Assembly: GCA_963669155.1 (NCBI GenBank)
Contig: OZ022589.1
Span: 5,834,723 to 5,898,722 of the forward strand
Direction: 5' to 3'
Origin: Arbacia lixula
Lineage: Eukaryota > Echinodermata > Echinoidea > Arbacioida > Arbaciidae
DNA: 64,000 nucleotides
Within the stretch, counting starts at the first letter, position 1, and every line of letters begins with the position of its first letter. The notes under the pieces are model-generated. The model saw nothing but the letters and a program-made list of their open reading frames with translations. It ran no database searches and was not told where the DNA came from. Below are positions 3,401 through 47,500 of the stretch, piece by piece. Position numbers and translations under genes: made by a program.

Positions 3401-6400
3401 ATAACTAGAGCGTCATTTTTGTCTATGGCCAAGTGAAACAGACAATGGAAAGCCATTGCATGCAAAGAACTGTACTGTCTTTTTTTTTTTTTAAGTGGAA
3501 CTGTTTTTTTGACTTACCATGACCAATAGAAAAACTTTTTCAGTGCCAAAGTTGCAGAGAATGTGTAATAAATGAATCGTCTTTTCCTGGCTTGGTACTG
3601 AGAGTGATAACAATTTCGTATGATTTCTGCTGATCAGGACGACATCCTCACAAACCTGGACCCGTTTGCTGCCACCAACTTCTCGCTGGAGAGAGCCCGG
3701 CACAAGTACCCCCGCCTGCACTTCCTGAGCAACCACGAGATGATCGACCTCTTCTCCAACTCCTCGGACCGGCAGAAGTGGGTCCCCCAGGTGAGGGCGC
3801 TGTTTCCGGGAATCCGCAGTCTGGTCTTCGAGGTGCCGTCGTCCTCTGACGACGATGGAATCGGCTCTGGGTTCGATCTGCTTCTGAACGGTGAGATTCT
3901 TTAAGGTCACACGAGGCAGTATTCCTCATTCTCCTCAGTCATACTTCCTCTCTGCCCTCCTTCCTTCCCCCAACATTTTGTATGCAATATGCCCTCTCAC
4001 CTAAACTCATTCTCTCTTCTATTGCTACTGTATTCCAGCCGACAGATTAGAAGTGACCGCCATCCAGGGGTCGTTAGGGGAGCACTTTAACCTGCTGGCC
4101 CCCCTGTCTGCCAAGTCCTCACCCCCTGTGTGGATGAGATGCCTGGAGACCTCCCTCAAGACCACCATGGGCAATCTCCTGCACTCCTGCCTCGAGTCCC
4201 GCCTCACGGAAGGTAACCTTTGACCTGGCTTCCAAGCCATTGGACATTTCTCAACCAAAGAATTCATTAAAGGGCATATACTTTACTGGGAAGGCAAAAA
4301 AGCCTTCAAAATGTAATTGTTAGCATTCTTCTTGCCAATGGTCTTAAATTCATGTATTGTCTATTTTAGAAGCTTGCTGAAAGTTATTTACCCTTAAATG
4401 ATCTACATTTGGAGTAATGAGTGATTAAATCACAAATCCTCAAAATGTTCGGCCCGAACATTTTGAGGATTTAATCATTAATCATTAATTATTCCATATG
4501 TGCATCATTTGAGGACAAATTTTGAGGGCAAACTTTTAGCAAGTTTCTAAAATAGACAATACATGAATTTAAGACCATTGGCAAGAAAATTGCTAACAAT
4601 TACATTTTGAAGGCTTTTTTGCCTTCCCAGAACAGTATATGCCCTTTAAAGGGGTCTGGCTGCAGTAGACTACTAGTAATCATTCTCAATTTCTTCTCCG
4701 GAACGGAGTCAGAAAAGGGGAGAATGATACAGTGACTAGTCTTAGAATATGATATTTGATTTTTCAGTTCGATTAGAAATACCCAACAGTCTTGAAACCA
4801 GACAAAAATCAAACGTAGCACAGGTTACACAGGTTTTTTCCTGTCAAAAAAGGATCAACAATTTTACAAAGTGATAATGCCTGAAGAAAGAGTCAACTAA
4901 CTTTTATCCTTCTTCTTTGTCGTGTTGTGCTGCTATTAATCTTGCATGCTCACTAATTTCATTATTACGTTGTGAGCAAAGCGATTATCCATGGATGATC
5001 AATGATCTACTCAAATCAACTTCATTTTCTCTTCCCAGGACTCGTCGCTGAAGACATCCTAGCCGAGCTGAGCGCGCTAGAGGCAGCCCAGCAGCCCACC
5101 CTTGACCCCTCCTCCGTCTCAGACGCCGACAACGAGGGCGATCTACTGAAAGAGGCTGTGCGTGTGAGCTTTAGCCACTGGCTGCTGCGCTACCCCTCCC
5201 AGTGCGTGTTGGCCGGGGAAGGGGTACTCTGGAGCAGGGAAGTGCAGCCTGCTGTCAAGGAAGGGGACAAGAAACAGCTCACTGATGTCAGGTCAGCAAT
5301 AAAATAATGATTTTTCAATTTACATAGTGCTTAATTTGAATATCTAAATGCTTTGCAATTCAAAATATAATGTGCTCTCCACAAAATTAAAATCAATCTA
5401 TACAAAATATAAAACTTAAATTTGATAAGCAAAATGTAACAAAACAAAGAAAAATCAAATCATGTAGATACATATAGTTGATAACTACACATTTTATTTA
5501 CTAAGAATGGGTTGTTTACAAATAAATTAATTGACCTAATGAGTGAAGAGGTGATTTTTTAATCTAGAAGCGAACAAAGTGGCAGAGGTTGGAGAGCCAA
5601 GTTCAAAAGGAAGGTTTTTATAAAGAGTTGGGGCAAGGACGGAGATAGATCTTTTCCTATAATAATTTGTTTTTGTATTGTGGGATTTCAAGGAGCAATT
5701 GGTCCTGTGAAAGCAAAGAGCGGGATGGAGTGTAGCATAGTATAGTGTAGTGCTTCTTTACCCTTTTATTCGATAGGCAATGATGTCAATCACTTGTATT
5801 GCATTGAGGGATATGGACTATGGGTGTTTGGTACAGAGGAGGTTGATTGAACTTTGTCCAGGCTAATTTGCTAGTAGCTCCTCCATTATCCAAACGAGAA
5901 TTCATGCTCAGCTTGCTGAAATCAATGAATATCTTGATTTAAAGACAGCCCGTCCCTTTTTCAGATCACCACAAAACCATTGAAACATTGGCAAAACATA
6001 TAGAGAAGTGTTAGCAAGCTGTATATTCATAATTTGAAACTGATACGTAGTGTAAAATTCAAATAACGCACATGAACAACATCTGATTAATAGTCTTTAC
6101 CTCAGGCTCTTAGCAGTTTGTGTTTGAATATCTGCTTTATTGATTCATCTGTTTATTAAATTATAAAATGCATTCTGAAAAAAAAAAATTGTTCTATAGA
6201 AGGAATCATCTCCAAAGTTTGGTAATTACTCATAAAATTAGGATTTCACACATGCATAATATAACAATTAAATGAAAAATGAAATTTTGAAATTTAATTA
6301 ATATTTTATAAGTGAGGGAGGTTAGAGAAGTCACATGACTAGTCACGTGACTTCGAGTATAATGTGAGAGCCCGCTCCAGTGCAACGTCATATTTAGAAG

Positions 6401-9400
6401 GACCGTGAATATTGTACAATATCTCTGAGCATAACTTCACTCCTGCGATACATAGACTTGAGCTGCAGAGGGAGGGAGAGGTGGGTGTGACTTCTCTAAC
6501 CTCCCTCACTTATAAAATATTAATTAAATTTCAAAATTTCATTTTTCATTTAATTGTTATATTTTATTTCGTGAGCTCAGTATCGAGAAGTCACATGACT
6601 AGTCACGTGACTTCGAGTATAATGTGAGATTTCAAAGATGTACAATATTCATGGTAGTTAGTACAAAGGTACAATTTCAAGGTCAAAGTACATCTACTGT
6701 AAGTCTCACCGCCCAGTTTAACTGCAGGGTGTACCCACTACTGCTCGACCAAATGACGTTTCCTCTCTGGTCTGGCGGAAATAAAAGTTTTTGAACGTCG
6801 TCTCATTGGACCACCCCGCTTGACGCAAAATTTCTGCGAGCGGGAAATTATTTTTCTTGGCTGTGGAAGTTGCAGCTGATCTCGTGGAGTGTGCGGAGAA
6901 CTCTTCCGTGTCGATGCCAGATGATTTCAGTACACACTTGATCCACCTTGCAATAGTCTGCTTACTTGCACGCTTGATAGGCTTTTTGTATGTCACAAAG
7001 AGTCCTTTCTCGGTTCCTCGGACAGTCTGTGTTCTTTTAATATATTCTCTAAGATAGTGCACTACACACAATCTCCTGTCCTCCGGGTAAGCCTTCAGTG
7101 ACAATTTGATGCCTACTTTGCCTGGCCTGCTGTTTTTTAGCAAATTAACTACAGCAATGTCCACCAGGTCCTTGCTTATCTTGGTATTATCGAGTGTCAA
7201 AAGGTAGATTGTCTGCACACGTTGAGCTGAAAGAAGGGCCAGGAGCATACAAACTTTTTGTGTCAAGGCGCACATAGACAATTTGTGAGCTGGACTGCTG
7301 CTCCTGAGGAAGTTGAGGACTTTGCCGACATCCCAAATGAAACTATAGCGAGGTGTTGGGGGCCTTAGATTGAAAACACCCTTCACATATCTGCAGATCC
7401 AAGGATGGTTAGAAATATTGTATCTGTCATCATCTAACAAAACTACCGATGCTAAAGCACTCCGAGCTACATTGATTGCATTATATGATGCTCCTGCTTG
7501 AAACATGGAGTTAAAGAACATGAATAATCTTCCCACTTTGGTGCGGGTCCAAAGGAAACGATGCTGTTGGCAGAACTTTTGCCACTTTCGAATGTAACAT
7601 AGATACTGTTTCTTAGTTGAATCTCTCCAAGATGCTCCAATAATGTTTGCAGTTTCGGTGCTTAGGCCTTGGGTAGTGAACTGTCTGTTCCAATCCTGCA
7701 ACAGAGAAGAGAAAGTCTCTTTAATGGGTGAGGTCTCCCCGAGGTTGGCTGTGTCAATATGTTCCCCTTAGGCAATGGCATTGGTTCTTCCAATAGCAAA
7801 TTCTGTAACATTGGATACCAAGGTTGTGTTGGCCAGTCGGGAACGATTATAATTCCTTTCGCACCGTCTTCTCTAACCTTTTGTAGGCACTTTGCAACTT
7901 GGCAAAACGGGGGAAATGCATAGAACCTAAGCTGGCCCCAATCTATCGAAAAAGCATCAACAGCCCAGGCTTCAGGGTCTGGCATCCACGAAACATACCT
8001 GGGAAGCTGAGTGTTCAATCTAGATGCAAATAAATCTACATCTGGGAGTCCGAAACGTTTTGTTATTGTGGTGAAAAGTTTCCGGTCCAGCATCCACTCA
8101 ACATTATCATTAAACTTCCTGGACAGTGCATCAGCTTCTGTATTTTGTGAACCTGGCAAATGGGCAGCAGAGACCCAAATGTTACGTTTGCTGCACCAAT
8201 TCCAGATTTCGAGTGCCATTTTATTGCAAGACCGAGACTTGGTACCACCCATGTTGTTGATGTATGCCACTGCGGTGGTATTATCTAGACGTAAGAGTAT
8301 GTGCGTGTTTCTCACATGTGAACAGAAACTTTTAAGACCATGGAAAGCTGCCAATGTTTCGAGGTAGTTTATTTCATTGTTTTCTGCCTTGCATTGTTCT
8401 GCATCATTCCATCTACCCCCAGCATGTGAGACCATGTCAGTGGCCCCCCATCCTTTCCCACTAGCATCAGATCTTATCTCCATTGTTGGTTTATCCCTGC
8501 AAATAGGGCTCCATGCCAAATCCACATTGAAAACCCACCATTTTAATTCTTCCACTGCCCCTGCCGAAAGTGTCTGTGCAAGCCTCTTTGAGATCGTTTT
8601 TCTTGGACAGTGGCAGGGAGATTTTCATGCTTTTAGTGTTCAGGTTGAACCCCAGGAATTCGATTTCCTGGGAAGGCACAAGGACTGATTTCTCTGGGTG
8701 TATGATAAACCCAAGATTAGAGAACAATTCAGTTGTGGCGGTAACGGCTTGTTTTATTGCCGATTCTGTGTCACCGATAATAATGGTATCGTCCAAATAT
8801 GCTACAACTGTGTGTCCCATCTGTCTCAGAGAGGCTAGCAGAGGCTTTATCATTTTAGTAAAAAGCCTCGGTGCCGACGATAGACCATTTGGCAGGGCTT
8901 TGAACTGCCACAACTCTTGATCCCACATGAAACGCAGGTATTTGCGTGATTCAGAGTGTATGGGAATAGTGTAGTATGCATCTCGGAGATCTACTGAAGC
9001 CATATAGTACCCTTTGGAAAGGAGGGGCAGGACTGAAAAAATGTTGTCCATCTTGAAGTGTTCATAATGAACACTTTTATTCAGCTCTGACAAATCAAGA
9101 ATTAATCTGATCTCTCCATTTTTCTTCGGTCTTGAAAAGATTTCCGATAAAAATTCGCCTGATTCATGAGGGCATCTCTCAATCACACTTTTCTCTTCAA
9201 GCTTAATAATTTCCTGATCAAGTTTTTCTTTATCCTCAGTGCTCCGTCTGTACGGGTAGAGAGGTTTTTCCCTCCTGGGGGGAAAGTATTCAGCATCAAA
9301 ATCAATGCTGTACCCTTCAACGGCACGTAAAATGTGAGGGTCAGATGTTAGAGAGTACCAATTGGGCAAAAAAGGCTTCAGACGACCTCCGACTGGACAA

Positions 9401-26500: not shown

Positions 26501-29500
26501 GCCTCCAGACCAACCCCCCACCCCAGGAGGAGGGGCCCACCGCACCCATCCATGGACCAGCAGTGCCTGTGAGTATGCACAGCGGTTTATAAACAGGGGG
26601 CCGTTGTAGGCAGGCGCAAGTGTGATGAAGACCCAGCGGCCAAAAGTGTTAAACTCGTGCAATAATTGCGTGTAAATAGTCTCGAAACACATTTTTCTCA
26701 ATTTTACCCTGTTGAAGTGTAATGAGGGCCCAGACCCCAAAACTAGTCAAAACCAATGCAATTTCTTATAAACTCGTTCTGTAATCGCCTGAGAATTGTC
26801 CAAACACTCTCACTCACAGAGTTTGACCCTCTATTGAAGTGTAATGAAGGCCCAGTGACCAAAACTAGTCAAAACCAACAAAATATCGTATAAACTTCTG
26901 CAATAACTACCTGACAATTGTGTCCACACATTGACCTGACTTCCCGATGGTGGCTTAACTACGTGCATGTACGTGTTCCAAGCCTGGACTAGCTCTATGT
27001 TATGCCAAATAAAACAACATGAAATATTATTATTGATTCAAGAGCATAGATTTTGTCCTCAGAATTACTATGGTACATGTAAATTGAATCTGTCCACATA
27101 AACATTACAGGGAGTAATTGAAATCACCCACTGTTGTGATTCTGTGATGAAACTCAATTTTTTTGTGACATAATCAGATGATTATTTTATGCTTCATAAA
27201 GTTAGTCCAAGGCTAGTACACGGTCTAAGTCAAACCACCGTTATGGTTAAGGGCCTTTAATCCCTTTTGCAGCAGATTAAATGCTGCTCTATGGGATTTA
27301 TGTGTCTTGATTGTGCAAAATGGCATAAATTGTAAATTGTAATTCTAACTGATTCCCCTCTGATTATGCGAAATGGCTTAAAAAATGCAAAAATTATGCA
27401 AAATGGCACAAATTGTAAATAGTAATTCTAACTGATCCCCCCCCTCCCCCCCCCCCCCCCCCCCAGGGTCTGGAGGGGCTGGCCCGCCACCAGCTGTCAC
27501 AGCCCATGGAGCGGCTGAGGCGCAAGGCAGAGGTGGTGTCCTTCATGACGCTTCACTGGATGGATGTAGCCACCAAGGGAGCTGAGAAGCCCTCCTACCC
27601 CCGCGTCGACTCCTCCGTCATCTACCCCGCTACGCTCTCAGACAAACAGGTCAGTTCTTTAACTTTTAAAGTCAGACTGGCAGATTTGCAACAGTCATGA
27701 AATTTGGCAGGAATCAGCTGTAGACCCCTAACGATAATTTGTAGGATATCCCACAGTCATAGCTTCATAAATCTTTTCAGGAAATATGAAAATTTATCCT
27801 TATTTACGTTTAAAATGCACCAACTGTCATCTACCCCGCTACGCTCTCAGACAAACAGGTCAGTTCTTTAACCTTTAAAGTCAGAGTGGCCCATTTGCAA
27901 CAGTCATGAAATTTGGCAGGCATCAGCTGTAGACCCTTAACGATAATGTGTAGGATATCTCACAGTCGGAGCCTCACAAATCTTTTCAGGAAATATGAAA
28001 CTTTATCCTTATTTACGTTTGAAATGCACCGACCAAGGTCTTCATTCGTAATTCGATTGCCCCATTCAGTGCATGATGCGTCGTGAAGCGGGCTTTGAAT
28101 GCGTTAATCGCATGAACTGTGGTGCGGACCATAGCAGACATCTCATGCCTAGAAGCTGGCAGCTTTGGCTGACTTGTACAAATCGTACAATGTAGGATAA
28201 GTGTATATTAATAGTGAAAAATACACACAGTAAGCACATTAAGAGTTCATCCCTTTTAGAGTGTATATGATGTCTACTGTATGTATTCCCACAGCTGATT
28301 GGTCAGTTTGACCCCGACAGCCAGCGCTGGTCAGACGGGCTGGTCACTACGCTGATCTACGGCTCGGGCCAGTCCATGGAGACAGCGCAGGACATGCAGC
28401 GGGAGCTGGCCGAGAGCAAGAAGAAGAAGAAGAACGCCACCAAGGGCCTCCTCAACCCCCCCACCGTCATCCACAAGTGGCTGCTCTTGGACGGGGTCAT
28501 CGACCCCCGCTGGGCCGAGACTCTAGGGGGGCTGATTGGAGACGGGCGGGGCATGCCGGGGTGCAGGGGTGATACCATGCTGTCCAGCGGAGAGAAGCTA
28601 CCCATTGCTGGTAAGTGGTCTGTGCTTTGTGAAGAGGGAAAGGGGGAGTGCAAGATATGTTTGATTTTATTAAGCTATGTTAGAGGGGAAGGAGGAGGAG
28701 GAGAGGGAGGCAAAAGATTTGGGATGGGTGGGGCATGCTAGGGGCTAGGAATTGCACCATGTTTTCTAGTGGAGAAGGGCTACCCATTGCAGGGCCACGT
28801 TGCATGTAGGTTTTCAATTATTGTAACTTTCCACCAATGGTAACTGCTATGGTAAAACCGATGTACAACATGGCCCAGATGGTGTATGGTTTTTTATGCC
28901 TCCGCCACGAAGTGGCCGGAGGCATTATGTTTTCGGGTTGTCCGTCCGTCCGTCCGTCCGTCCGTCCGTCCGTCCGTCCGTACGTCCCGAATCCGTTTAG
29001 GCAATATCTTGAGAACCGTTGAGCAGATTTGCTTCAAACTTGGTACATGTATGTATTGCATATAACTAATGAAGTGTATAAAATTGGGGTCAAATCTGAT
29101 TGAGGTCAAAGGTCAAAGATCAATGAACTTTGTAAAAATTGCCCCAAAATGAACTTTTCTGCAATAAATCTAAATCCAATGATGCAATTCTCATTAAACA
29201 TGGTACAAAGATGTATCACTACTTGGGGATAGACTGGTGACATTTTTAGTAAAATTCCTGAAAGGTCAGAGGTCAAAGGTCAATGAAATTTGTGAAAATT
29301 TGCCAAAAATTGACCTTTTTCACAATAAATCCAAATCCAAGGATGCAATTCTCATTAAACATGGTACAAAGATAGATTGGTACTTGGGGATAGACTGGTG
29401 ACATTGTTGGTGAAATTGCTGGAAGGTCAGAGGTCAAAGGTCAATGAACTTTGCAAAATTGATATTTTTCACAATAAACCTAAATCCAAATCCAATGGCA

Positions 29501-32500
29501 CAATTCTAACCAAATATGATACAGAGATGTATCACTTCATGGAGGTAGACTGGTGAAAGTTTGGGTAAAACTCCTGAGAGTTCAAAGGTCAATGAACTTT
29601 GCCAAAAATTAGCTAAAAATTGCCCCCAAAGTGATAATTTTCAAAATATATCCAAATCCAATGGAGCAATACCAACCAAACATGGTGCAAAGATGGATCA
29701 CTACTAGACTGATGACATTTTTGGTGAAATTTCTCAAAGGTCAGGGATCAAAGGTGAATGAACTTTGCCAAAATTGGCTAAAAATTGCCCCAAATAGATA
29801 TTTTTCACATTGAATCCAATACTAATGATTCAATTCAAACCAAAGATAGTACAGAGATGAATCACTTCATGGCGGTAGACTGGTGAAGTTTGGGTAAAAT
29901 TCCTGAAAGGTCAAAGGTCAATGAACTTCACCCAAAATTGGCTAATTTTAAACAAACTTGATACAAGTATGGATTTAGACAGACTGGTTAGATTGGAAGT
30001 CAAAGAAGTAAGAGGTCAAAAGTCAATGAACATTGCCAAACTTGGCTAAACTTGAAAAAACAGAATGCGATATTTTCATTTCACATAGGAGAAATGGTAC
30101 ATTGCCCACCAAACATGCACATTTTCTGAGAATAGCAAAGAGGCGGAGGCATATTTATCGACTGCCGGGCAGTCGAATTGCTCTAGTTTTGAAGAGGGCG
30201 GGAAGTGGGGGGAATGGTTCAAAATCTGGTTGATTTATTAACCCGTTGCTCACTGTAATATTTTTGGACTTTGTGAACTCTGGCTCAGCTAGGATGTCAA
30301 AAAATTACCATGGTACTGTGATAACCAAGGGAGTACCACTTCATTATTAGGTAATTTAAGCTTCGTGAGAGCCTGTCTTCAATTGATTGAACAGCAGATT
30401 TCTAGGGACTTGTGGTTCTCAGTATCTTGGTGGGGAAATGTTACTAGATTGGAGGGGCGTGCAGAAGGAGAGGTAGGGGCAGCACCAGCTTCCCAGCATC
30501 CAGTTTGATTGAAAGAGAGAGTGAAGGGAGGAAAAGAGAAAAAAAACAGAGGAAGCAATGAGAAAAAGGAAGGGGGGGGGAGAAAAAGAGGAAAATAAGA
30601 GGATAGAAACAGAAGGACATGAAGGGATCAGAATAAAGTGGAGGGAGGAAAGTAAAGGGAGGAAAATGAAAAAAAAAAAAAAAAAAAAAAAGAGGAAGAG
30701 ATGAGAAAAAGGAGGGGGGAGAAGAGAAAGAAGAAAAAAAATAGATGAGAAACAGCAGAACATGAAGGGATCAGAACAAAATGGAGAAATAAGGAGACGA
30801 ACAGAGAAGAACAAGACGGAGGAGAAGAAAGTGCACAGACACTGCCTTGACCATCATCATACGCATTGACAGTTTGACCACCATACTCACTCAATCTCTC
30901 TCCTGACTCCAGACTGCACCTCCCTGATCTTTGAGACGCATACAGTGACCACTGCCTCTCCGGCCACTCTGGCCCGCTGCGCTGTGGTCCACCTCGGGGT
31001 GGAGGTGGTCAGCTGGAAATCGCTGGTGGAGTCCTGGCTCTCTGGTGCCCAGCAACAATGGGAGCTCAACAACAATTGGTGAGTCCAGCTGTTTACTCTC
31101 TCTGTGCCAGATGAAACTCTATGGGAATTGTGTGTATTAAAGGGAATATACTGTACTGGAAATACAACAATGCCTTCAAATGGGGATCGTGAGCAATGTT
31201 CTTGCCGATGGTCTTAACTTCATGTAGTGTCCATTTTAGAAACTTGCTTAGAGTTATTTTCCCTCACATGATCCACATTTGGAGTAATTAGTGATTAAAT
31301 TACAAATCATTGAAATCACTTCCGAGGCGATTTGGATGTAGCTATCTTTCAGAAGCGCAGCTGAGGAAAGATAGTGTCTACATTCAGATCGCCGAGGAAG
31401 TGATAGGTCGTCTCATTGCCTTAAGATCATTTGCTTTATATTCCACATCTGAAACCAACTCTACCTAAACCTGGGCCCCTGCCATGGGGAACACGCGTTA
31501 GGACGCGCATTAGGATGCGCGAATTAGGACGCGTTAGAAGTAGCAACTGTTAGTCAATTGATAGTCCGAGTGTAACACACTTTTATTTCACGCGTACTCT
31601 AAATCATGCATTAGGACTATGAGGAGTGAAGAGATCAGCAAATCCAAAAAGTACTATCACCTAGAGTGTAACGAACTTTTCTTCACAGGTGATCAGATGT
31701 GCAAATTTACCCTTTATCATGTGATCAACTCTTGACCAATAATATAGCAACATTCTTAGTATGTGGAATATAACCTGTGTTATCAGACATAGTTGTTATC
31801 AGACCTGTTCTCACCAAACTGTTCGTAAGTTACGAATGACTTTACGAACGACTGGTGATCCCTTCTTGTGCTAAATGCGATACCATACTTGGTTAATTGA
31901 GAATCTGATTTAGCACAAAAAGGGATCACCAGTCGTTCGTAAAGTCATTCGTAACTTACGAACAGCTTGGTGAAACACCCTACTGGTTGTGTCCATGCAC
32001 CTTACAGCCTAGTTACTAGGCTACAATGACTACAAAGAGCTTTTTGTTTGAACTTTCCGTTATCTGATTCTTGTCTCCGCAGTCTGCAGCTGTTGCAGAA
32101 CCTGATGGACGACACCTTCTCCCGCACGCTGGAGTTCCTCTCCAGCTATCACTGCCTCCCCGCCCTGGACTCCGACCTCCCCAGGGAGGCGGCAGCAGGT
32201 GGCCCTGGGGGTGGTGGGGTGGTGGAGGGGGCGAGGGAGGTGGGGTCCTTCCTGCGCATCCTGACAGCCATGTGTGACCACCACCTGATGAGGGAGAAGG
32301 GTGATGGGAGCGAGCCCATACAGATTAGTGACCCCAGACTGGGTAAGGGTGTCACGATGTGCTTTAGGATTAATTCTATTCTGACTCGGCTTTCTAGGTG
32401 CGTCTGCATTAGCCAGATCAGACGAAATAGTGAGCTATTGTGCTGATCCGGGGAACTAGCCTGAAGTTGCAATCGCGTCTTCATCAGCTCGAAACTCGGG

Positions 32501-35500
32501 ATACGTAAGCTCAAAACTCGTGATGCATAAATTATCCTGATGTTCGCACATGCGCAGTATGCGACAGGAATAGGCCACGGCTGCATGGCTTCGGTTGTAA
32601 GCTCGCATTCACGCATGTATAAAAACCTAACGTAAACAATGCATTGTGCGCGCTGATGCATGCCGGGGTTGGGAAATTATCAGGCTAATGAAGACGCTCC
32701 GAACTAGCTCCATCTAGCTCAGGATTTCTTGCGAAGTTTTCTCGACCAAATAGCTAGCTATTTCACCTGATTCAGCTAATGAAGAAGCAAATAGCTAGCT
32801 ATTTCGTGATCTGGCTATCTAACCCGATCAGAACAAGCTAGCTATTTTGCCCTCGAAGACACCCCTTTTGAGAGCAATTAAGTTTTGACTGGAGGGCTTG
32901 TCATTTTTTACATGTATATTGGCCACGGAAGGTTGTATTGAAGTTAAATTTTGCATTCTCCATGTTGAGAGCGCTACTGGATAAATTTTTTTTAGGAAAA
33001 AATATTAAATTTTGTGAAAATAGTTTTTTGTGCTAATTAGATAGATATTTTACCAATCTATTCATATTCTTGTAATCCACAATATCATGTTAAAAAAAAT
33101 TGTATCTTAGTGTCAATTAAAATAAGTTAAACAACTTGAAAAAAAACGTTGTGATCAAGCAAAAGGCCTAGAACGCACAATTGACAGTGATATAGAGCAG
33201 TATAGGAAAAGAAGTATTTTGTACAAAAACTTATACAAAATATCTCTTTTTGTCAGATTTTGGTTCTGACAGGCGATTACATAATGTTGCATTGATCTGT
33301 AGAGAACCATGATATCATTTGATTGCAAACAGCATTTTCAATATTATCTCTTCATCGAACCTAGTATGTTCTCTGATGATGCATACAGTATCTCTCTTTG
33401 CACAGATGAGAGGAGAACACCCCGCCCCACCCCCACTCCTACCCCCACCCCCAGCGCATCCAGCCTGACCAGGAAGCCGGTCAATAAGCTGACCCTCGTC
33501 ACCTCTATGTTCACATTCGCCTATGTGTGGGGCTTTGGTGGTCAGCTGCATGACCGGTGAGATAATACATTCCCAAACAGTCCAGTACACAGAGATGACA
33601 AATAAACAAGTTTATGATAATGAGGCGTCAACACAAACAGTGGTCAGCCTTAGAAGCCCAGGCACACTGCTCATTGATAATATTAATACCGGTTATTTAT
33701 ATAGCGTTATTCACAATGTATCATAGGGCTTCATTAATTCTTTAAAATAATATTAATTTCTTTAAGTATGCATTACACCATAGGAAATCTTGATGCATGA
33801 TAATAAAAACAGACAAGTTGATAGAATGAGTATAGGAGACTGATTAATAAGGATAAGATAGAATTATGTATTTTGATATTGACTTTAAAGGTATTATGTC
33901 ATTTTTCTCCAAGTTGTGTGAGAGCACAATCTGTTTTTCTAAAAAATATTCTAAAGATATTCTGTCACTATTTTCTTGCCCCCAGGCATGCTGAGATGTT
34001 TGATCAGTTTGCACGCCAGGTGTTGAGCCGAACAACCTACGACATCGTCTTGCCTCAAGAGGGCAGTGTTTATGACATTCACGTTGATGTTGGCTTGGGC
34101 ATTCTGGCCTCCTGGACAGATGCCAACAGGGAGAAGATGAGGACCATCAATGCCAACTTCACTGTCACGCCACAGGTGAGCAAATGGCTTCTTGTTTTGT
34201 TCAGTATGGAGATAGGGAAGGGGCAAGGGTGTAGAAAGGGGATGAAGGAGGTAGGGAAAGAGGGGTGCGGTGGGAAGGGGATGGTGAAGGAGGAGTGGGG
34301 AGGAAAGAGGGGTGATGAGGGGAGGAGATAGGGTGAGAGGGGCGGAGAGGGGAGGGGAAAAGGAAAGAAGGGAGATGAGGGGATAGAGACAGAGGGGTGG
34401 AGAGGGGAGGGGGTAGGGAAAGAGGGGTGGGGAGGGAAGGGCAAAGGAAAAGGAGTGGAGAGGAAAGGGGATAGGGAAAGATAGTTGGGGATGGAAGTGA
34501 TAGGGAAAAGAGGGGGAAGAGGGGAGGGGATAGGGAAAGAGTGGAGGGGAAGGAAGGAAAGGGAATAGGGAAAGGGGAGAAGAGGAGACAAGGGGAAAGG
34601 GAAATATGGCTAGAGAGAGGAGGGATAGGGAAAGAGGGAGTAAGGGAAGGTGAGGTAAGGGGAACAGGGTGGGGGAAGTTGAAGGTGAGGGGATAGGGAG
34701 AGAGGTGTAGGGAGGGAAGATAATAGGGACGTACTTGAATCAAACAAGGGCTAAATATACAAATATTGTACACCCTGTATTTAATGTACATGTACTGCAC
34801 ATACCAGTGATACTATAACACATACCAGTGATACTATAATATTGCGAATGTTGTTTTTGAGGTTTTGTGCAGCAAACCGCAATAATAACATTTTCTCATT
34901 TCATGGTTAGCCCTCTACTTGTCTCAGCTCAAGCGTTATAATGTGATTAAACAAAATCTCTTTCAATCCGATTCATGTGTTTTTCTCATTTATGCTTTAT
35001 TAATGAATGACCTTGATATGTTTGCACAAATCATAATAGCAATACAGAAATTCTTAATGGCACATAAATCTCCAAATGGTGTAATACATGTGTGAAAACA
35101 TGATCATGTAGTTAGATTAGACAAAACACCGGCACAAGTTTGATATATACATAAAGCACAGTTAACCTGTAGTATTATAAAAGCTAAGCATCATAAATGA
35201 TTACATTTTCATGGTACATGTATGATGTTATTTATGGTTGTTGTTTTTGAATTGGGACCTGAGGCATTAAGTTGACAGGATCAAGTTTAATTGGCAACGA
35301 TATAATGTATTTACATTCAAGTTACTGACCATAATAGCATAGAAATTAATTATTAGTGTACATGTAAACATATACTGCCTTATTGATACTTTACCTAAGC
35401 AGGGTCTGATTCATTTGTGATCATTTGAATGTATGAAGCTATGGAAGATGGAGATTGTGAGATTTATTATATAAGTTTTTGTGCTCCTAATTCTTCATTT

Positions 35501-38500
35501 CTGCTTGTCATGTTTTAATTTTTTCTCTTTTGTTTTGTCCTGCTTGTTCTTGTTCTCTTTATTCCCCTTTTATCTTCTCTTTCCCCCTTCCTCCTCCTTC
35601 TCTTCCTCCAATTCATTTTTTTTTTTGCTCATTCAATGTCATCCTTTTTGTAGTGATACTATATGTGACCGAGCAGGCCAAAATGAGTGACAAGTCGGGA
35701 TTTATCATGTTTGAGTTATATATACCACCTTATTCTCCGTGCCCTAAGCTTTATTTTGATACTTAAATCATAGATTTTGGTGGCTTGGGCGCCGAGATAC
35801 AACTATTATAAAGTAGAAAATATAAACGGCAGTGAAAAAAAGAAACGGAGAAATTCGCTGTTAAAGAATACGATACGATTTGCTTCCGAACTCATGTTGT
35901 CCCTCGCTCAATCGTGCTATGTCAGCTAAATTCACCGTTTCCAAGTGCGTGAAAACAGTTGACCAATCACAATGTAGTTCGTATAATAGAACCGTCACCG
36001 ATCGATATCCGCTTTCCGTGATTTTGCATGGCTATTGATAGACGCCCAGACCTGGTCGCGGGGGAGATATTTTGTGTGAGAGACCGAAGAAAGTACATGA
36101 GTTTGTTTCGGCTTGATTTTGTTCAATTGAAGAATATGAATCTTCAATATTTCTTCTTGCAAAATGTGTGAGTTTTATCTCTTGAAATAAAGTATAGATC
36201 CGTCCATTCTTGTATTAGAAATGATGGGTAGAAATGAAATCTTCGGGGACTCATTAAGCTGGCGAGATCAGCGTATTGCGAAAGGTCAGTCGACAATAGG
36301 TGCAGTCATGCGATTGGTCACTCTGGACACCTCCGGCAGCAAGACTGATGCATAATGCATGATTTGCGAAGACATGGTGTAGACAATAGATTTACTCAAG
36401 TAAGCAGCTCCCATTGTCGTTTTGGATTTGGAAGGTGCAAGCAAGCATCGATTAAGTCCATGCTTGGTGTGTGGTTAGATTGCGATACTGAAAGTTCAAC
36501 TTTAAAGCGATTTAAGGAACCTGCCGATTTCATTGAAGCTATTGATAAATCTCGAGTCGCCCTTTGAATAAACTACCGGTTAATTACAAGTATTGATAGA
36601 GCCCTCCCCATATCTAAGAAAATATCAACTCATCGTAATTTCATGTAAAGAAACCGGCAATTTTCCGTAACTTGGCTAAGCTCGATTAATAACCTGCCGA
36701 TTCATCATGACTATTAATAATTTCCGACCCGCCCGTCCTTGACAGGAACTCCCGGTTAATCGTAACTATTGACAGCGACCGCCCATATCATTTTAAGAAA
36801 CTATTCATTCGTCGTATCTTCGAAACCGGCAGTTTACCGTAAGCCCGCTCTATCGCTACTAAACTACCGATTTTTCATGACTATTAATTATTTCCGACAC
36901 GCCCTTGATATGAACTCGCGGTTTATCGTGATGGTTAACAGTCAAATACCCGTCCTTTTGATTGAGAAACTGCTATAACTAATAAACACCGACACGCTCT
37001 CCATGGGGACTACAAGTCTATCGTAATTATTGATAATGCCGGGCTCGTTTTTCGAAACCGGCTATCAATCGGAGCTTTTCATAAAAGGCAGACCCAACCT
37101 TTGAATAAGTTACCGTTTTTTCGTTACTTTTGAAAAAAACGCGACATCTTTAAGCAACTGCTAATTTGTCGTAAATACATGTACACGTAGCGGTATATCA
37201 CATAGAAACTGTCGTTTTTATTGATAAAATCCACGCCATTTTTAACGAACTGGTGATTAATTTTTTTTTTTACTTATTTCCTAACTAACCCGTCCTTGAC
37301 ATAAAATGTACCGTTTTCCCATAATATGTATCATTAAAACCCGGCCTGTCGTTAAAACGGCAGTCAATAGGAGGTATTCATAAAGTAAGGCCCACCTTTT
37401 AAAGAAAATACCAATTTATCGAAATGATTATGGAAATAGCACACAATCGTAAAAAAGCAAGGCCAAACCTTTTCAATAAATTCCTGTTTTATTTTAACTT
37501 TTAGGCCCGCCCTTTAAAGAAACTAACCAGTTCATCGTATTGACAGGCCTAATTAAACCAGCCCCTGAGCTATAGTAAGGCAGGGCCAAACCCTTTGAAG
37601 AAACTACAGTTCATTTTACAGTAACTTTCGATTAACTTTTGGTTTACCGTAATTCTTAAAGCCCGCGCTATTTATAATAAATTGACGATCTATCCTAACT
37701 ACATGTACACTGTTGTGTATCAATAATCCCGAGCCACCATGTAAGAGACGGTCATGCCGACTTCATCGGAACTTGGCTATTAGAAAGCACTTACCATCTT
37801 TGATAATTAATTACTGCTGATTGCATGATCGCGACTGTAAAATAAAACCACACCCGCCCTTGAAATAAAACTACCGGTTTATCGTAATGATTAATAAATC
37901 CAATCAATCCGTCCCTTTAAGAAACTCTCATACCTTTAAATAACCCCAGACACTTTCTTTAAAGAAATTATACCATGTTATCATAACTATTGATAAAGCC
38001 AGGTTCGTGTTTTAAAGCCGTTAGCAATCGTACAAGATCTTCATATTGCGCAGGCCCACCTTTTGAATAATCTGCCGGTTTTTCGGAACTAGAGAACCGC
38101 GTTATTGTTAATAAACATGCCTACTTCATCGGAACTTGGCTATTAGAAAGCACTTACCATCTTTGATAATTAATTATACTGCTGATTGCATGATCGCGAC
38201 TGTAAAATAAAGCCACACCCGCCCTTGAAATAAAACTACCGGTTTATCGTAATGATTAATAAATCCAATCAACCCGTCCCTTTAAGAAACTCTCATACCT
38301 TTAAATAACCCCAGACACTCTCTTTAAAGAAACTATACCATGTTATCATAACTATTGATAAAGCCAGGTTCGTGTTTTAAATCCGTAAGCAATCGTAAAT
38401 CTTCATATTGCGCAGGCCCACCTTTTGAATAATCTACCGGTTTTTCGAACTAGAGAACCGCGTTATTGTTAATAAACTGCTGATTATTTTATCGTAACTA

Positions 38501-41500
38501 TTACTAATTCAAGACCGGCCTTGAAATAAACTATATACCAGTCCATCGTAATTATCGATAAAGCCAGGCCCGTCTTTTGAAAACGGCAATCAATCGTATA
38601 GCTACATGATAAAACCCAACAAGGCCCGACATTGAAACACTTGATTTATCGTAACTATTGTATTGGCAAAACCCGGATCAGCTAGTTTTTACTAAAATAT
38701 GGATTTATCTTAATCATTATGATAAGGCTCGATACGTCCTATTACCCTTTTAGTACCATTGGCAATGAACTGTGTTGTAATTGACATGGGATTTTCAGTG
38801 CTTGATACTGACGGGGTTAAAAAAAACTGTCAATTTATCGTAACTACTAATAATTCCTGACTCGTCTGTGAAAGAAAGTTTATCTAACTAAAAGGCCAGG
38901 TTCGTCTTTTGAAACCGATAACCAATCATAGCTTATAAAGCCAAGCCCGTCATTTAAATAAACCATCGGTTTATCGTAACTATTATCGAAGCCCACCTTA
39001 TACACTTAATAAACTGCCCATTATATTGTACGTGGATCACAGACCCTCCCTTGAAAGCAACTACCAGTTTATCGTCACTATTGGCAAAGCCGATCCATTC
39101 GCACTAGTTTTTGTATAATAAACTGCCGATCTATCCTGACTACATCGTGGTGTATTAATAATCCCGAACCACCCTTTCAGAAACGGTTATGCTTATACTT
39201 AACAACTAGGCTATTAGAAAGCATGCGCCGTTTTTGATAACAAATTACTTCTGATTGCATGGTCGTGGCTGTAAATTAATCCAGACCCGCCCTTGAAAGA
39301 AAACTCCGGGTTTATCGTAACATTAATAAAGCCAGTCGACCCATCTCTTTAAATACTGCCATACCTTTACATAACAACAAACACGCTCTTTGAAGAATTG
39401 TGCCACTGTATCACAATCATTGATAGAGCATGCAGGTTCATGTTTTGAAACGGCAAGCAATCGGAAATATTCATAGCTTGAAAAGCCAGGTCTGTCCTGA
39501 AATAAACTATCGATTTATCGAAACTATTAGCAAATCCGCCTTATATTTAATTTACTGCCGATGCATCGTAACTAGTTATAATCTCCGACTCTCCCTTGAA
39601 AGCAACTACATGTACCAGTTATATTTCCAAAGCCGATCCATTGTATTTCTGCCCTTCACACAAAACTAGTCGAGCAAAAGTAACAGCATGTACTGCACAT
39701 TTTCATTGTGCAGAGTACCAAAACATATAGATTATGCATTTTTTTTTTCTCTCCCCCACTTGAATTTAATAAAAAAAAGGATGGCAAAAATAGTGAGCTG
39801 AAATGCTACTTGGAGTTGGCCCATTACATGTGTCTGAAATCTGAAAGAAAAAGAAAGCTGCTCAACAATCTGCGTGACGTCACCTTCGGGGCTCTTAGAT
39901 AAGTACCACTTACAATGCGCATTCTCTTCAGTAGGCGTGGTAGGAAGGGGACTCTTTTGTATGTAAGTGAGGTCATTAACGCTATGGCATCCTGCATCTT
40001 ACCCGATAGACAATGGCCACGATGTCGAACTGGGGAGTAATCCGGAGTATGTGGTAACTCTTTTGTGCACGTTGAAAATAGGGCGATACTTATTTTTTTT
40101 TGGAGATATCGCCAATGAATGTGCAGCGCTTTGAGCCGGATTTGCCGTTTATTATACTCACATGAATAAAAAAACTGGGAATAAAATGCGGCAATTATGC
40201 AATAGGCCAACTGAGTTTGGGGAGTGATTTAAAATACAACATGGAATGCACCGACAACGGCAACCTTCAAGAGCACCACGTGCGTGATTAGTACTAGCAA
40301 GAATGGAGGAATACTAGTAGATAATAAAGAAGTCTGACGTGAATTCATGAAAGTCTTATTTTCATTCATGGAAAAAAAAATAAGAAAAACATGTTATTCA
40401 TGCCTTGACCTTTCGGTTTCATCATATATTTAGCAAATCTTTTCAGTTCATAAATTGATACTAGTGATATCAACACCAAAAACTGAAAAACTATGACACA
40501 ATATAGCAGTTGTGAACAATATTACGGGATCTGCCTAGCATGAATACTCATCGAAGCACCAGTAGTAATTTATCCCGACACAACTCGTGTTCATTTATAT
40601 TGGTACGATTGTGAAACCATTAGTAACGCAATATTTGAACGACAATTAAGCATACACTTTAAATACTTAATGAAAATGTTTCACCTTTCTCTCTCTGTAT
40701 ATTTATATATGATTTGTTATCATACACAGAACGTTTCCATTGAAGTGCCCATCATGGACAAGTCGGGTTGATTTTAGTAGACGTTGTTGTTGTTATGTCG
40801 TAGTGTATTACTTGCAGTAGAATTGATATAAGCATCAAGTACATTGTGTTGAATCATTCCAAAATCATTATGTTAATGTAAAGTTCTTGTTTATTTTCAA
40901 GCATACTCTTTTAACAGCGAATATCTGACAACTTATAGAAGTTATGTCTTGTCAATCGATATTTATTCGCTGTAATGATTAAGAAATCTCAAACCGATGT
41001 TGCTGAAAGTAAGATACACAACTTTCGTGTGGTGAAAGAAACCGTTTTTTTCTTTACATCATAGAATGTAGAAAGCAAAGAGAAAAACAATTGCAATCAG
41101 GCAAATGGGGGATATCTAAATTAACATGCGTTTGCTTCTAATTGTGACTAATGTCACAACATGGATGTGATACTGTAGTTGGTATAACCGTCGTTACATT
41201 GAGCGGGAAATATCGTCAAATTAGGTTCTGTCTGATGTTTATTACAATTTAATGTTTATCTTTCTTAGTGGAACGCCAATTTCAGTTGAATATCGTAGAG
41301 AACGAGACGTTATGATAATATCAACCCGGCATTGTACACAGGATGACGTCACGTTAGCACGTTGTCAGGTTTCTGTTTATTGCGATTAATTGTTACAATG
41401 GTCAAGATGATGATTGTCATCATAGTTATGATCATGGCGATGATTATGTTGGTCACGGTGATGATTACTACGGTGATGTTTATAACGATCATTACGATGG

Positions 41501-44500
41501 TCAACGGTGATGATCATCAATTATAATAGGCACCGCGAGCGGCGTTGGCTTGGATCGATGATCATTGATCGAAGGTTATTCTATCGGCCAACTGACAAAA
41601 TGCAACAACTATTTGGAGTATCATAATCTGAATTAAAAAAAAAAACTTTCTCATCGGGGCACACACTTTTGAGAATTACGAGTCTTTTCAAAGAGCTGAT
41701 AAACGAGCAGGATGCCAGATCATTTCAATTCCGGAGTGGATTTGTTAAATAAAGAACGAACGCTAAATCGCGCACCGTCGATTAGCAGGCAATTAAAAAT
41801 AACAGTTGGCGGATTTGAAGGCGGCTTAAGTGATATGCAATGTGGGGCGGGGGGCGCTGCACACAGGTATTCAGCGGCATTCAGCGGATGGTCATGATGA
41901 TGATGATGATTATGATGCTCATCACTATAGTTACGACCATCAACGATCGATCATTACGATGATCACGGTGATGATGATTATTATCATAGTTATGCATGAA
42001 CATGGTCACGGTGATAATGAAGAAGATGATAATAATAATAATAATAAAAAGATAATTGTGGGCGGATTTGAAAACCAATGAGAGACGTGGGAGGTGATTT
42101 GCTTAACATGGTACTGATCACTTGCCTCACCCTATAGCAATACTAATGATCGCGATTGTTATTAAACGTAACCAATTAAGTGTTCGAATAAGCAATATTT
42201 TGCTGCCAAAGTTTTTAACTGTAAGTTGCGAAAAATAAATCTCTGTTGAGCTCTGATGTACGTAGAAAGAGCTCCAGTTTCAAATGGATCCAGGTGACTC
42301 GTTCATTGATTAACCGACCACAGCCCAAACAATAAAGCAACGCATACAACGCACATTCTACGCCGCACCACCGCGCCGATCTCTTTAGAAATCGGTGCCT
42401 CACACACATGTAAATCACTCGTACATGCCGCGAAAAATAAGCCAATGAACGACGAGCGGTAACTAAGGGGGCGGAGCTTAGACCACTATTCACGCAGGTC
42501 TTCGCATCGCTCGCTCGGGAGGCGAACGCAAAACGCAAAACTTGCATAAACATGACTTCAGAAAAACGATAAAATTTCATATTTACATTTATTATTTTGG
42601 TCTGAAATTTTGACACATGATAGGTTAAACTATGGAGAATCTTATAAGATAAAAATCTAAAAAGTCGATTTTTTTTCGATTGATGAGTTAATTGTCAATT
42701 TTCTCGGTTCGAGCAAGAGCGACTTGTCACTCATTTTGGCCTGGCGGGTCTCATATAAACATAGCTACTACATACATGTAGTATTAGATTACAAGACCTA
42801 GTGCTTGAATATCATTATTATGGGAAATACCATGGTGACAAAAAAATGATTGAACCCGACTGAGTGGAATTGAATATAACATTATTAAGCCCGCAAGCCA
42901 TTGTGTGATATTTTTTATGAAATGATACAAAATCAAACTTGAAATAAATAAAAACCAAACAATTCATGTTGTAATTGAAATATTCACTACACCCCTTACA
43001 CCCCACTTCACACATCACTTATTCATCCCTCAATCTTCCCTTCTCTCCGTCTCCTTTCACTTTCCCTCACTGTTCACTATATTTCACCCTGTCTTTTTCC
43101 ACATTCACCCTCCCATCCATTCATCTGCATCCACACCTCGCCTATTTCATTGACATTGTATAAATTCTGGGTCCTTGTTTTGTCATCCCTTCTTTAGGCG
43201 GAGAGGTACTTCCATCTCCTAGACATTTTAGCTGGTGCCAATCAACCTGTGCTCTTAGCTGGTGCTCCTGGAGTTGGCAAAACAGCTCTGATTCAGGTAG
43301 ACTTATATGTTAAGCCAAGGTTTTAGGCCCTCTGGAGTGTGTAGACATACAGTACTGCTTAGCCTATGTGTCGATATTGAATTGAATTGAATTGAATTTA
43401 TTTGGTTCCACATATAAACATACAAGAACATCAACATTAGAAGAAAAAAAAGTGTTGTGAAGGGGGGAAACATAAGAAGAAATCAAATTACATGTATGTC
43501 TTCTTATCTTTCTAACAGATTAATCAGTTATTTTTGTGTATACTATGGAGAGTAACAGCAAAACAAAGTTTATATGAAAAAAATTGTAAAGTAATCACTA
43601 TTCAAATTGGCAACACACTGGAAAATTTTATTCCACACTTTCAGTCTCTAAAATTGCTGGGATTGTTGTGTTAAATTTAATTTTTTTTTATATCATTATT
43701 GTTTACAATATTTACACACTTTGAAGATTGGATGATCTGACTTAATATAAAGTTTTGCCAATTTGAAAGCCAAATTAATGATAATGTTGTGAATATTTGT
43801 ACATGTATTCTTCCTTACCAGAACATGGTGCAGCCCAGGCATCACTTCCTGTCTCTGTCCATGTCGTCTGTCATGAGCTGCGAAACCATGGAGACTACTA
43901 TCGTCAGTAAGCTCCGCCCACGTAGCACGGTGACCAACAACCCACAGCCAGTGAGACCCGGTCAGATGGCCGTCAACCCGCTCTTCTTCATCGACGATCT
44001 GAACTGCGCTGGCATTGAAAAGCGCACAGGTACAACCTTGTCCATGCAATAGTCTTCAGTTCTTCCTAGTCTGTTTTAACTTTGTTTGTTCGTTTAGGCG
44101 TCTTGTCAAAAGTTCAAGATGCAAAAGGCTGCGTGCGATGAAAGGCTTGATTATCCCCTGTCCTTTTCTAGCTGCCAGCTTTCTTTTTGTTTAAAAGACG
44201 CGTGTGGTCCTTTTCCTCACTTTAATCATGGACCCTACTAGGGTCCATGCTATATTTATAATACGTTGCAGTGTAATGAAAAGAAAAGAACCGATGGACT
44301 ATTATTGGAACGCTAGCTGGCCTTTGCGGTCTTTTCAACATTCTGACCCCTATTCAGGAAAGACGGAAGTATAAAGGCTCATCCGTTCTTTTGTCTAACA
44401 AGTTTTGACAAGGCGCCTTAGTTGCCTTATTTAGTTGTGTTTGTTATTTTTATTTTGTATCTATGTAATGTTTTTAAAACTGTGGATGTACCTATTTTGT

Positions 44501-47500
44501 TTGACTATTTACCATGTAACCAGGGCACCCAGAATGAGCAATGCCTAGCACACTAAAGTGTGCTTGGTAAAAGAATTATAATTACCAAAAAATGAAAGAA
44601 CAAGAAATAAATAATTCAATATGCAAAATATCAATTACATTATTCATCTTTTTTACACCGCAGTTACCATTAATTTTCAGTAACAATAATTGAAATACTT
44701 CATAGCCTTGTGATTCTCTCCATGTACTTACTTTTTGTCTCGCCCACCGGAGGTGAAGGCGAGACTAAGGGATCCAAATGGCGTCCGTCCGTCGTCCGTC
44801 CGTCGTCCATCCGTCGTCCGTCACAAATGTTAAAGTTTACCTGCAAGACTCTCTTATGATCCATAACTTGGCAACTGTTACAGCAATGGCAGCCACACTT
44901 GGTTGATAGAAGCACTAGGGGTATCTTCATGTTATGGTGTTGTCAGAGGTCATGTGATGATGTCAAAGGTCATGTGAGGTCATATATTAAAGAGTATGTG
45001 CAATTAAGACTCTTTTTCTATGTTAAAGTTTACCTGCAAGACTCTCTTTTGACAAATAACTTCACATAGGTTGCTTGGATTACAACCTAACTTGGGTCAT
45101 AGATGCACTGGGGTTACCTTCATGTTATGGTACCGTTGGAGGTCACAGGATAAGGTCAAAGGTTATTTGAGGTCATACGTTAAAGTTTACCTGCAAGACT
45201 CTCTTTTGACAAATTACTTCACATGGGTTGCTTGGATTACAACCTAACTTGGGTCATAGATGCACTGGGGGTACCTTCATGTTATGGTGCCGTTGGAGGT
45301 CACAGGATAAGGCCAAAGGTCATTTGAGGTCATGCGTTAAAGATTACCTGCAAGACTCTCTTTTGACAAATAACTTCACATAGGTTGCTTGGATTACAAC
45401 CTAACTTGGGTCATAGATGCACTGGGGGTACCTTCATGTTATGGTGCTGTTGGAGGTCACAGGATAAGGTCAAAGGTCATTTGAGGTCATACGTTAAAGT
45501 TTACCTGCAAGACTCTCTTTTGACAAATAACTTCACATAGGTTGCTTGGATTACAACCTAACTTGGGTCATAGATGCACTGGGGGTTGTCTAATCTAATA
45601 GAACTTGGTGGAGGCTTTTTATTCCATCTCAAAGAAGGGGGAAGGTGGGGGAGGGGGAGTAGATAGAGGAAGTAGCATTGCGTGAAATAGCCCTTCTCAT
45701 TTATGGAATGTTACATTTTATGGCAGATATTTCACAATCAGCCAGGGATACAATTCTTTTGCGTAGCAACGGAGATCGCGATATTTCTGGTTATTTTCGC
45801 AAGTGGGCGAGACACAATATTGCTAATGCCTTGTGTTATAAATCAATCAAACACAGCAAACAGGCAAAATGTTCAAAACGTGAATTTGCTTAAAATTTTG
45901 CAGGTGAACAACCCTGTCTTGAAATGCTGCGCCAACTGATGGCAGAGGGCAGCGTATACCAGCGCGACAGCCTCTCGCACTACGCCCTGGAAAAGGTGAA
46001 CTTCGTAGGGGCGTGCCAGCCACCGGGCCACATGGGCGTAGGCAGCGGGGAGGGCTGCCACCCCATCAGCCCCCGCTTGGCGCGCATGTTTGTGGTGCTG
46101 ACGTACTTTGCTCCCGCTGCCGACTCACTCAATCTGTTGCATGCTGGAAGCTTACAGAGCTGGCTGGAAGAGTTCCCTGCTTACTCTCTAAACCACCACT
46201 ATGAGCTTGCTCAGGTAGAAACATTTCCATAAAATGTCTTTTATAATGATTCCATTTCATCACCAGAGAATTTTGTTTGTTTTTCTTGACATGTCGGCTC
46301 TTGAATATGTCTTGATTTTCAATGTCTATTAAGATAGTCTATAAAGCTATGCCACTTTAACTACCTTTTGTCTTAATATGTTTTTTTAAGAAGGGATGAG
46401 TGGTAAGGTGTGTTTCATTCTCAGAAAATTGCTAGAAAGTGCCCAGATAATATAATGTGCTGTGCAGGTGAGAGTATGTGTGAAATAACAGTGAAGTGTT
46501 TGTACAGTTTGTACAGATATAAAAGATATTGGGAAGAACTACATGTATAAATAAATGTCCACACAAAAGATAGTGACTATGAAATGTATAATAAAAAGTT
46601 ATGCTGTTTCTTGCTTGATTTTTCTAATATAAACATTACCGCTCTTATATGATTAGTGTCCAATAACCATGGCTGATGATGTGTGTATACTGTATTGTGA
46701 TTATACCATTGATATTGTATTGAGGCAATTCCTTCAAGTCACACGTTGATTCATACAGTTGAGGCCAGAACTTTACATACACCCAGGAAATTCAAAGAAA
46801 AGTTGATACTTGCCAAACATCATAACATTTACTGTATCTTATTAAATATTTGTGCTATCATAACGAATTTGATATCAAACAAATCAGTATGTCGTGCCCC
46901 TTTATCACATTGCTTTGTCATCAGGAGCTGAAAACAATTTAGGTGTCAATTTCCAAAAAAATCTTCATATTTTAGACAAATTTGAAATAAAAACTTGACT
47001 GAATCATTTCATATTTGTGCTAGTTGCTTCTCAACACAAACATTTCAGATTACACTTTTTTGTTCAGTGGTGACATATCATGATCACAAATGTAATATAA
47101 ATTATACATTTGACATTTATATATTTCTATGAAACGATGTTTGAAAATGTAATAACAAACAATAGTATACAATTGGCCCGAATATTTCTTTTTTTGCTTC
47201 AAAGAAAATTCAACCTGAAATATAATTTAATCCCAACGGCATTCCAATCATGTGAAGGAACTTAATCCGCTCTTTCATTTGACACCAAATTTGTTATCGT
47301 AGTATTTATATTTCTGAAGATATAGTAAATTTTACGATGTTTAGCAAGCGAACAAATTTCACTGAATTCCATGGGTATATGTAAACTTTTGGCCTCAACT
47401 GTACATGTACATGAAGATAAGAGTCTGGTAAAATATAAGAAGAATGAAACTGAAACACATACTTCAGGTTCACCACTGCTATCCATTATCTTTAATGTCA

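Follow-up and report, generated by a model that had tools for sequence, protein, structure and literature searches.

A 7.1-kb DNA transposon family, almost certainly non-autonomous, inserted at AWWT sites in the genome of Arbacia lixula

An intron of a dynein heavy chain gene in the echinoid Arbacia lixula holds a 7,088-bp element with inverted termini, located in a stretch of 64,000 nucleotides that we refer to as the window (NCBI GenBank assembly GCA_963669155.1, contig OZ022589.1, positions 5,834,723 to 5,898,722 of the forward strand; plain coordinates below count from its first letter). We are nearly certain that this element represents a family of non-autonomous cut-and-paste DNA transposons about 7.1 kb long, and its termini and target site suggest that the family is probably, though by no means surely, mobilised in trans by a transposase of the Sola2 type. 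The element and its surroundings are as follows.

34176..43198, plus strand: dynein heavy chain intron holding the element, 9,023 bp (splice sites and Pfam-matched flanking exons)
35661..35664, no strand: left target site duplication, ATAT (identical AWWT word at each side in 37 of 38 pairs)
35665..42752, no strand: the element, 7,088 bp, GTGACC...GGTCTC (sequence, inverted-repeat search and copy comparison)
35665..35697, plus strand: left terminal inverted repeat, 33 bp
42720..42752, minus strand: right terminal inverted repeat, 33 bp
42753..42756, no strand: right target site duplication, ATAT (identical AWWT word at each side in 37 of 38 pairs)

The initial annotation had described an element with terminal inverted repeats filling most of a dynein intron, and this was borne out: the repeat search recovered an inverted repeat of 38 nt (35660-35697 and 42720-42757, 89% complementary), and the element takes up 79% of the intron (7,088 of 9,023 bp). 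The 33-bp terminal repeats are identical over their inner 24 bp, with all four mismatches falling in the outer 9 bp. The intron is delimited by a splice donor, gtgagc, at 34176 and an acceptor, ...tttag, at 43198, both read from the sequence, and is flanked by an exon ending at 34175 that matches Pfam Dynein_AAA_lid (3.5e-07) and an exon starting at 43199 that matches AAA_7 (9.3e-07); the single PDB match of the dynein-flank DNA (E 0.49) was taken as chance. The same intron contains a purine-rich G/A tract shortly 3' of the donor (34302-34638) and a 21-bp tandem repeat, CACATACCAGTGATACTATAA (34798-34839), which is similar to the left flank of the element, GTAGTGATACTATAT (35650-35664).

Copies were sought in the same 607-Mb assembly with a pattern of both termini, allowing up to three mismatches, and with the reversed pattern as a control. 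The pattern had 101 genomic matches and the control none, which excludes chance. Among the 100 matches listed, 85 were family ends, assigned by their terminus, and the other 15 had a sister terminus; the 85 ends resolved into 38 paired copies and 9 single ends, that is, at least 47 loci. A search of this genome for the termini had been proposed at the outset, with the absence of other copies as the result that would speak against the element, and the finding of at least 47 loci with these ends establishes it as a real family. The paired copies are 5,962 to 12,609 bp long, 24 of the 38 measuring between 6,662 and 7,088 bp, and those that were fetched align to the window copy as one sequence, about 1-8% apart. 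DNA searches with one end only gave the best 40 of 60 candidates for the left end and the best 40 of 77 for the right.

The long copies were considered as possible autonomous versions, and the 12.6-kb copy C12:10971810 was rejected as such as far as it was read, being ordinary at element positions 4828-6822. Its interior match lies 4.40 kb from the left end, compared with 4.44 kb in the window, which places the extra DNA to the right of position 6822. Two other long copies measure 9.6 kb (C18:17377719-17387342) and 9.8 kb (C9:6162683-6172518). Large inserts were seen in L010, L015, L018, L019, L024, L048, L049 and L050, and six of these eight have, by eye, a direct repeat at the edges, as nested insertions do, L010 and L050 being equivocal. 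In L017 and L027 the match to the element ends at positions 3590 and 1827, respectively, and the 10 kb fetched for each contain no right end.

Sister right ends made up 19 of 77 matches of the terminus pattern with at most three mismatches, with no partner end nearby in the pattern (examples are C1:322943, C1:6561713, C2:6883664, C8:11957403 and C20:5605569). At least eight of them have one 28-bp terminus in common, GGGACCCGACAGCCCAAAATGGGTGACA, and at least eight among the matches listed start with GG. Their flank word is ATAT in 16 of 19, a count of ends and not of established independent insertions.

The target site was read from the flanks of the paired copies. An identical AWWT stands on both sides in 37 of the 38 pairs (19 ATAT, 10 ATTT, 5 AAAT and 3 AATT), and 14 flank pairs agree over 4 bp and differ outside. 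The initial annotation had given 34-bp inverted termini with TATA flanks; the inverted ends stand and TATA is indeed found on both sides, but TATA as the duplication fails across the copies, which carry AWWT, shifted by one base, instead (ATAT in the window). Thirteen of the 18 copies with both ends known entered a comparison with unoccupied sites, in which unoccupied relatives of three insertion sites ran straight through the predicted junction and carried the word once. These relatives are window 29461-29089 for the L024 site (93%), window 29960-30196 for the L015 site (76%), and L009, L014 and window 14574-14308 for the L019 site (73-77%); the same comparison also yielded weaker alignments with an altered word, and L025 with L015 (70%) was unsupportive of the junction. 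Window 29103-29945 is a tandem repeat of 161-164 bp with AGGTCA words, a relative of which is the L024 insertion site. In L023 the two flanks are near-complementary, and the element seems to be set in the middle of a palindrome.

Several known groups were rejected on this target. A TA duplication would be expected of Tc1/mariner, and 18 of the 37 duplications are without a TA core (10 ATTT, 5 AAAT and 3 AATT); the TTAA duplication of piggyBac (PMC5199201) was found in none of the 37; and for Polinton/Maverick, whose duplication is 6 bp (PMC10045372), the 14 flank pairs agree over 4 bp and not outside.

The events that would account for these copies can be set out in order. A transposase encoded elsewhere in the genome would bind the identical inner 24 bp of both termini, cut at GTGACC and GGTCTC, and integrate the entire element at AWWT, of which ATAT is the commonest form, through cuts staggered by 4 bases; that this transposase would be of the Sola2 type is less certain than the other steps. 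We propose this type on the strength of the target, as AWWT duplications have been published for some Sola2 elements: those of Dictyostelium and Polysphondylium are described, in excerpts of PMC3627910, as having 4-bp duplications AWWT, including ATAT, AAAT and ATTT. Most Sola elements, according to the portion of PMC10741241 at hand, are 2-9 kb long with inverted repeats of 11-1124 bp. The family presented here has AWWT in 37 of 38 pairs (a 2-bp reading being formally possible), inverted repeats of 33 bp with four mismatches, within the Sola range, and a length that also lies in that range. Unlike these elements, it has no transposase that could be found within it, and its terminal repeats are 33 bp long as opposed to 12-21 bp in the amoeba Sola2 elements of those excerpts. 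The initial annotation had named Ginger, Academ, Chapaev and Kolobok as candidates; the target points instead to Sola2, which was absent from that list.

A number of points weigh against this proposal. No autonomous partner was found, the patterns with up to three mismatches having returned only family and sister right ends among the matches listed. Six-frame Pfam scans of the window copy, L061 and L063 revealed no Sola2 transposase, though such scans say little about Sola remnants; Pfam is not known to include a Sola model. The AWWT word is AT-rich and loosely defined, and an unrelated transposase could also prefer it. One pair, L040/L052 (C3:27829423-27837184), stands alone in having no duplication, and the sequence alone cannot separate a 4-bp duplication with GTGACC...GGTCTC from a 2-bp duplication with TGTGACC...GGTCTCA, in which case the element would span 35664-42753 (A-WW-T, the duplicated bases set between hyphens). 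The left flank of L040 ends in a 35-bp palindrome, TTTTAAGCTGCTCACAGACTGTGAGCAGCTTAAAA, that adjoins the terminus, and the right end of this pair (L052 1448-1521) stops at GGTCTC without the A. We prefer the 4-bp reading because the 2-bp reading needs a coincidental match of the element's end bases to the flanks, and because the right end of L052 lacks the A, which is weak evidence from one aberrant copy.

The 2-bp duplication leads to an alternative that we regard as distinctly unlikely, in which the same non-autonomous element, with termini TGTGACC...GGTCTCA, is moved by an ISL2EU-like (PHIS) transposase that duplicates the 2 bp inside A-WW-T. The part of PMC4482050 available describes an ISL2EU target A-AT-T, in which 2 bp are duplicated and the A and T on either side are conserved, and the sites of our family, which likewise lie between an A and a T with an AT-rich core, are equally readable as A-WW-T. 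ISL2EU duplications, however, are AT, whereas any WW occurs here and AATT accounts for only 3 of 37; its termini usually begin with GG, in contrast to TG in the 2-bp reading of our element (GT and GA in the 4-bp reading); and the terminal T and A of the element would have to be the same as the flanking T and A purely by chance. A further difference is that the window copy, when scanned with Pfam, had no THAP or YqaJ match. ISL2EU itself was rejected by target and termini.

Another alternative, which we consider unlikely though less so, is that the same non-autonomous element depends on a different superfamily whose duplications are near 4 bp (Sola1, Ginger, Academ or Chapaev) or on an undescribed one. 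Chapaev and Sola1 have duplications about 4 bp long, but the superfamily cannot be told from the length of the duplication alone, and no transposase was found in the three sequences scanned with Pfam. A search for AWWT together with transposons in the open-licence PubMed Central literature, a scope outside which most subscription papers fall, nevertheless led to Sola2 elements only.

Mobilisation in trans by a Sola2-type transposase thus being our preferred reading, we turn to what the element itself contains. Its interior was divided as follows.

35698..36570, no strand: left unique region, with no open frame of note
36571..39582, plus strand: decayed repeat field in which a 33-bp motif was recognised 22 times
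37753..38480, no strand: two tandem units of about 365 bp (repeat search and copy alignment)
39640..42719, no strand: right unique region, parts of which are found at 76-87% identity in the older relatives L062 and C17:11127538

This layout of two unique regions (35698..36570 and 39640..42719) around a repeat field (36571..39582) agrees with the subterminal unique DNA and large repeat field first described. Within the field, several of the 33-bp motif units are spaced at about 50 or about 100 bp, and a lag of 51 ranks fourth among 790 lags. The tandem of about 365 bp is apparently reduced to one unit in four of the 19 fetched copies that reach there (L009, L011, L020 and L022, among L009-L028, by alignment), and the older copies L049 and L050 seemingly have more than two.

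No transposase was detected in six-frame Pfam scans of the window copy covering 35664-39002 and 39400-42755 (positions 39003-39399, part of the repeat field, lay outside them), in keeping with the original remark that none was recognisable. The scan of the window copy gave a lone DUF1289 match below its cut-off (E 0.0043), which, like a MARVEL match also below cut-off (E 0.035), was taken as chance. The longest stop-to-stop frame overlapping the element is of 159 aa, and Rfam gave no match up to E 0.1. The other copies were aligned to the window copy and not Pfam-scanned whole; the frame lists of L010, L017, L027 and L048-L051 contain no recognisable transposase frame. L027 has, by eye, a reverse-transcriptase-like frame outside its matched part.

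To estimate divergence, we compared 19 copies, namely the window copy and 18 of the 20 fetched, leaving out the partial L017 and L027. Their mean pairwise difference is 1.35% (range 0.75 to 2.03%), terminal branches make up 92% of the length of their tree, and 702 of 795 minor variants are private to one copy when the window copy and all 20 fetched copies are counted. The tree joins L020 with L021 (support 1.00), the window copy with L023 (0.96) and these four together (0.997), so that the pattern, as judged from the copies' sequences, is that of a recent burst, close to star-like but not purely so.

Older relatives were also found. L048, L049 and L050, chosen for lower left-end identity, are about 92-98% identical to the window copy in pieces and have the same plan, and L051, chosen in the same way, contains only the left 866 bp of the element within the 7.7 kb fetched; the sequence that follows is unrelated and holds a frame of 226 aa and a cysteine-rich one of 146 aa. 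L062, which was reached through a sister terminus, aligns with the right 2.5 kb as three blocks of 86, 76 and 78% identity; a foreign insert in it holds a frame that looks, by eye, reverse-transcriptase-like. A further match, at C17:11127538, has 87% identity across 876 bases of the query and lies 1.73 kb from the sister right end C17:11130116, compared with 1.65 kb in the window. In L061 the likeness is confined to the right 319 bp (88%); the remainder of the 4 kb fetched is different, and no Pfam match was obtained. As older relatives keep the right part, this non-coding part predates the recent burst.

These relatives bear on whether the window copy or a near ancestor encoded its own transposase and then lost it, which we hold to be highly improbable. 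In favour of such a loss, no long reading frame is left in the window copy, and some distant ancestor was presumably coding. Against a recent loss, copies 1.35% apart have the same interior, and an older relative at 76-86% identity shares the right 2.5 kb. Before that burst, coding capacity was already missing, or the repeat field had taken its place. The keeping of this right part argues for a long-lived non-autonomous lineage and not for a freshly decayed autonomous element. The initial annotation had allowed for a family that was either new and non-autonomous or autonomous and decayed; the former fits better, given the lack of a Pfam transposase, the common interior of the copies and the older relative.

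Elsewhere in the window, a 157-bp unit is repeated in tandem at two separate places, 45022-45586 and 48132-49097; the units of the two arrays are very similar, and a short CGTC or GTCC array precedes each.

The family was absent from titles and abstract openings on AWWT, Sola1-3, echinoderm DNA transposons and non-autonomous 2-bp duplications in open-licence PubMed Central. It seems to be a new family belonging to a known kind of transposon, remarkable chiefly for its length, and the efficiency of cut-and-paste transposition drops as element length grows. In having no recognised coding capacity, common termini and many near-identical copies, presumably moved in trans, it resembles miniature inverted-repeat transposable elements (MITEs) as treated in iMITEdb (PMC5199201); these, however, are shorter than 800 bp, as against about 7.1 kb here. 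One conceivable explanation, which we offer as a long shot, is that the 7-kb interior is not ballast and that the repeat field of about 3 kb or the subterminal regions act in cis, in transposase recruitment, replication timing or escape from silencing by small RNAs; if true, this would explain how the length was kept across more than one round of amplification without shrinking to a MITE.

To summarize, these copies supply a real, recently active transposon family in an animal genome, with its ends and target defined and many near-identical copies. Should the link to Sola2 be true, the family would provide an animal example of a recently mobile substrate of the Sola2 type. Why it has stayed near 7 kb with no recognised gene, whereas non-autonomous DNA elements are short as a rule, is a further question that lends itself to testing.

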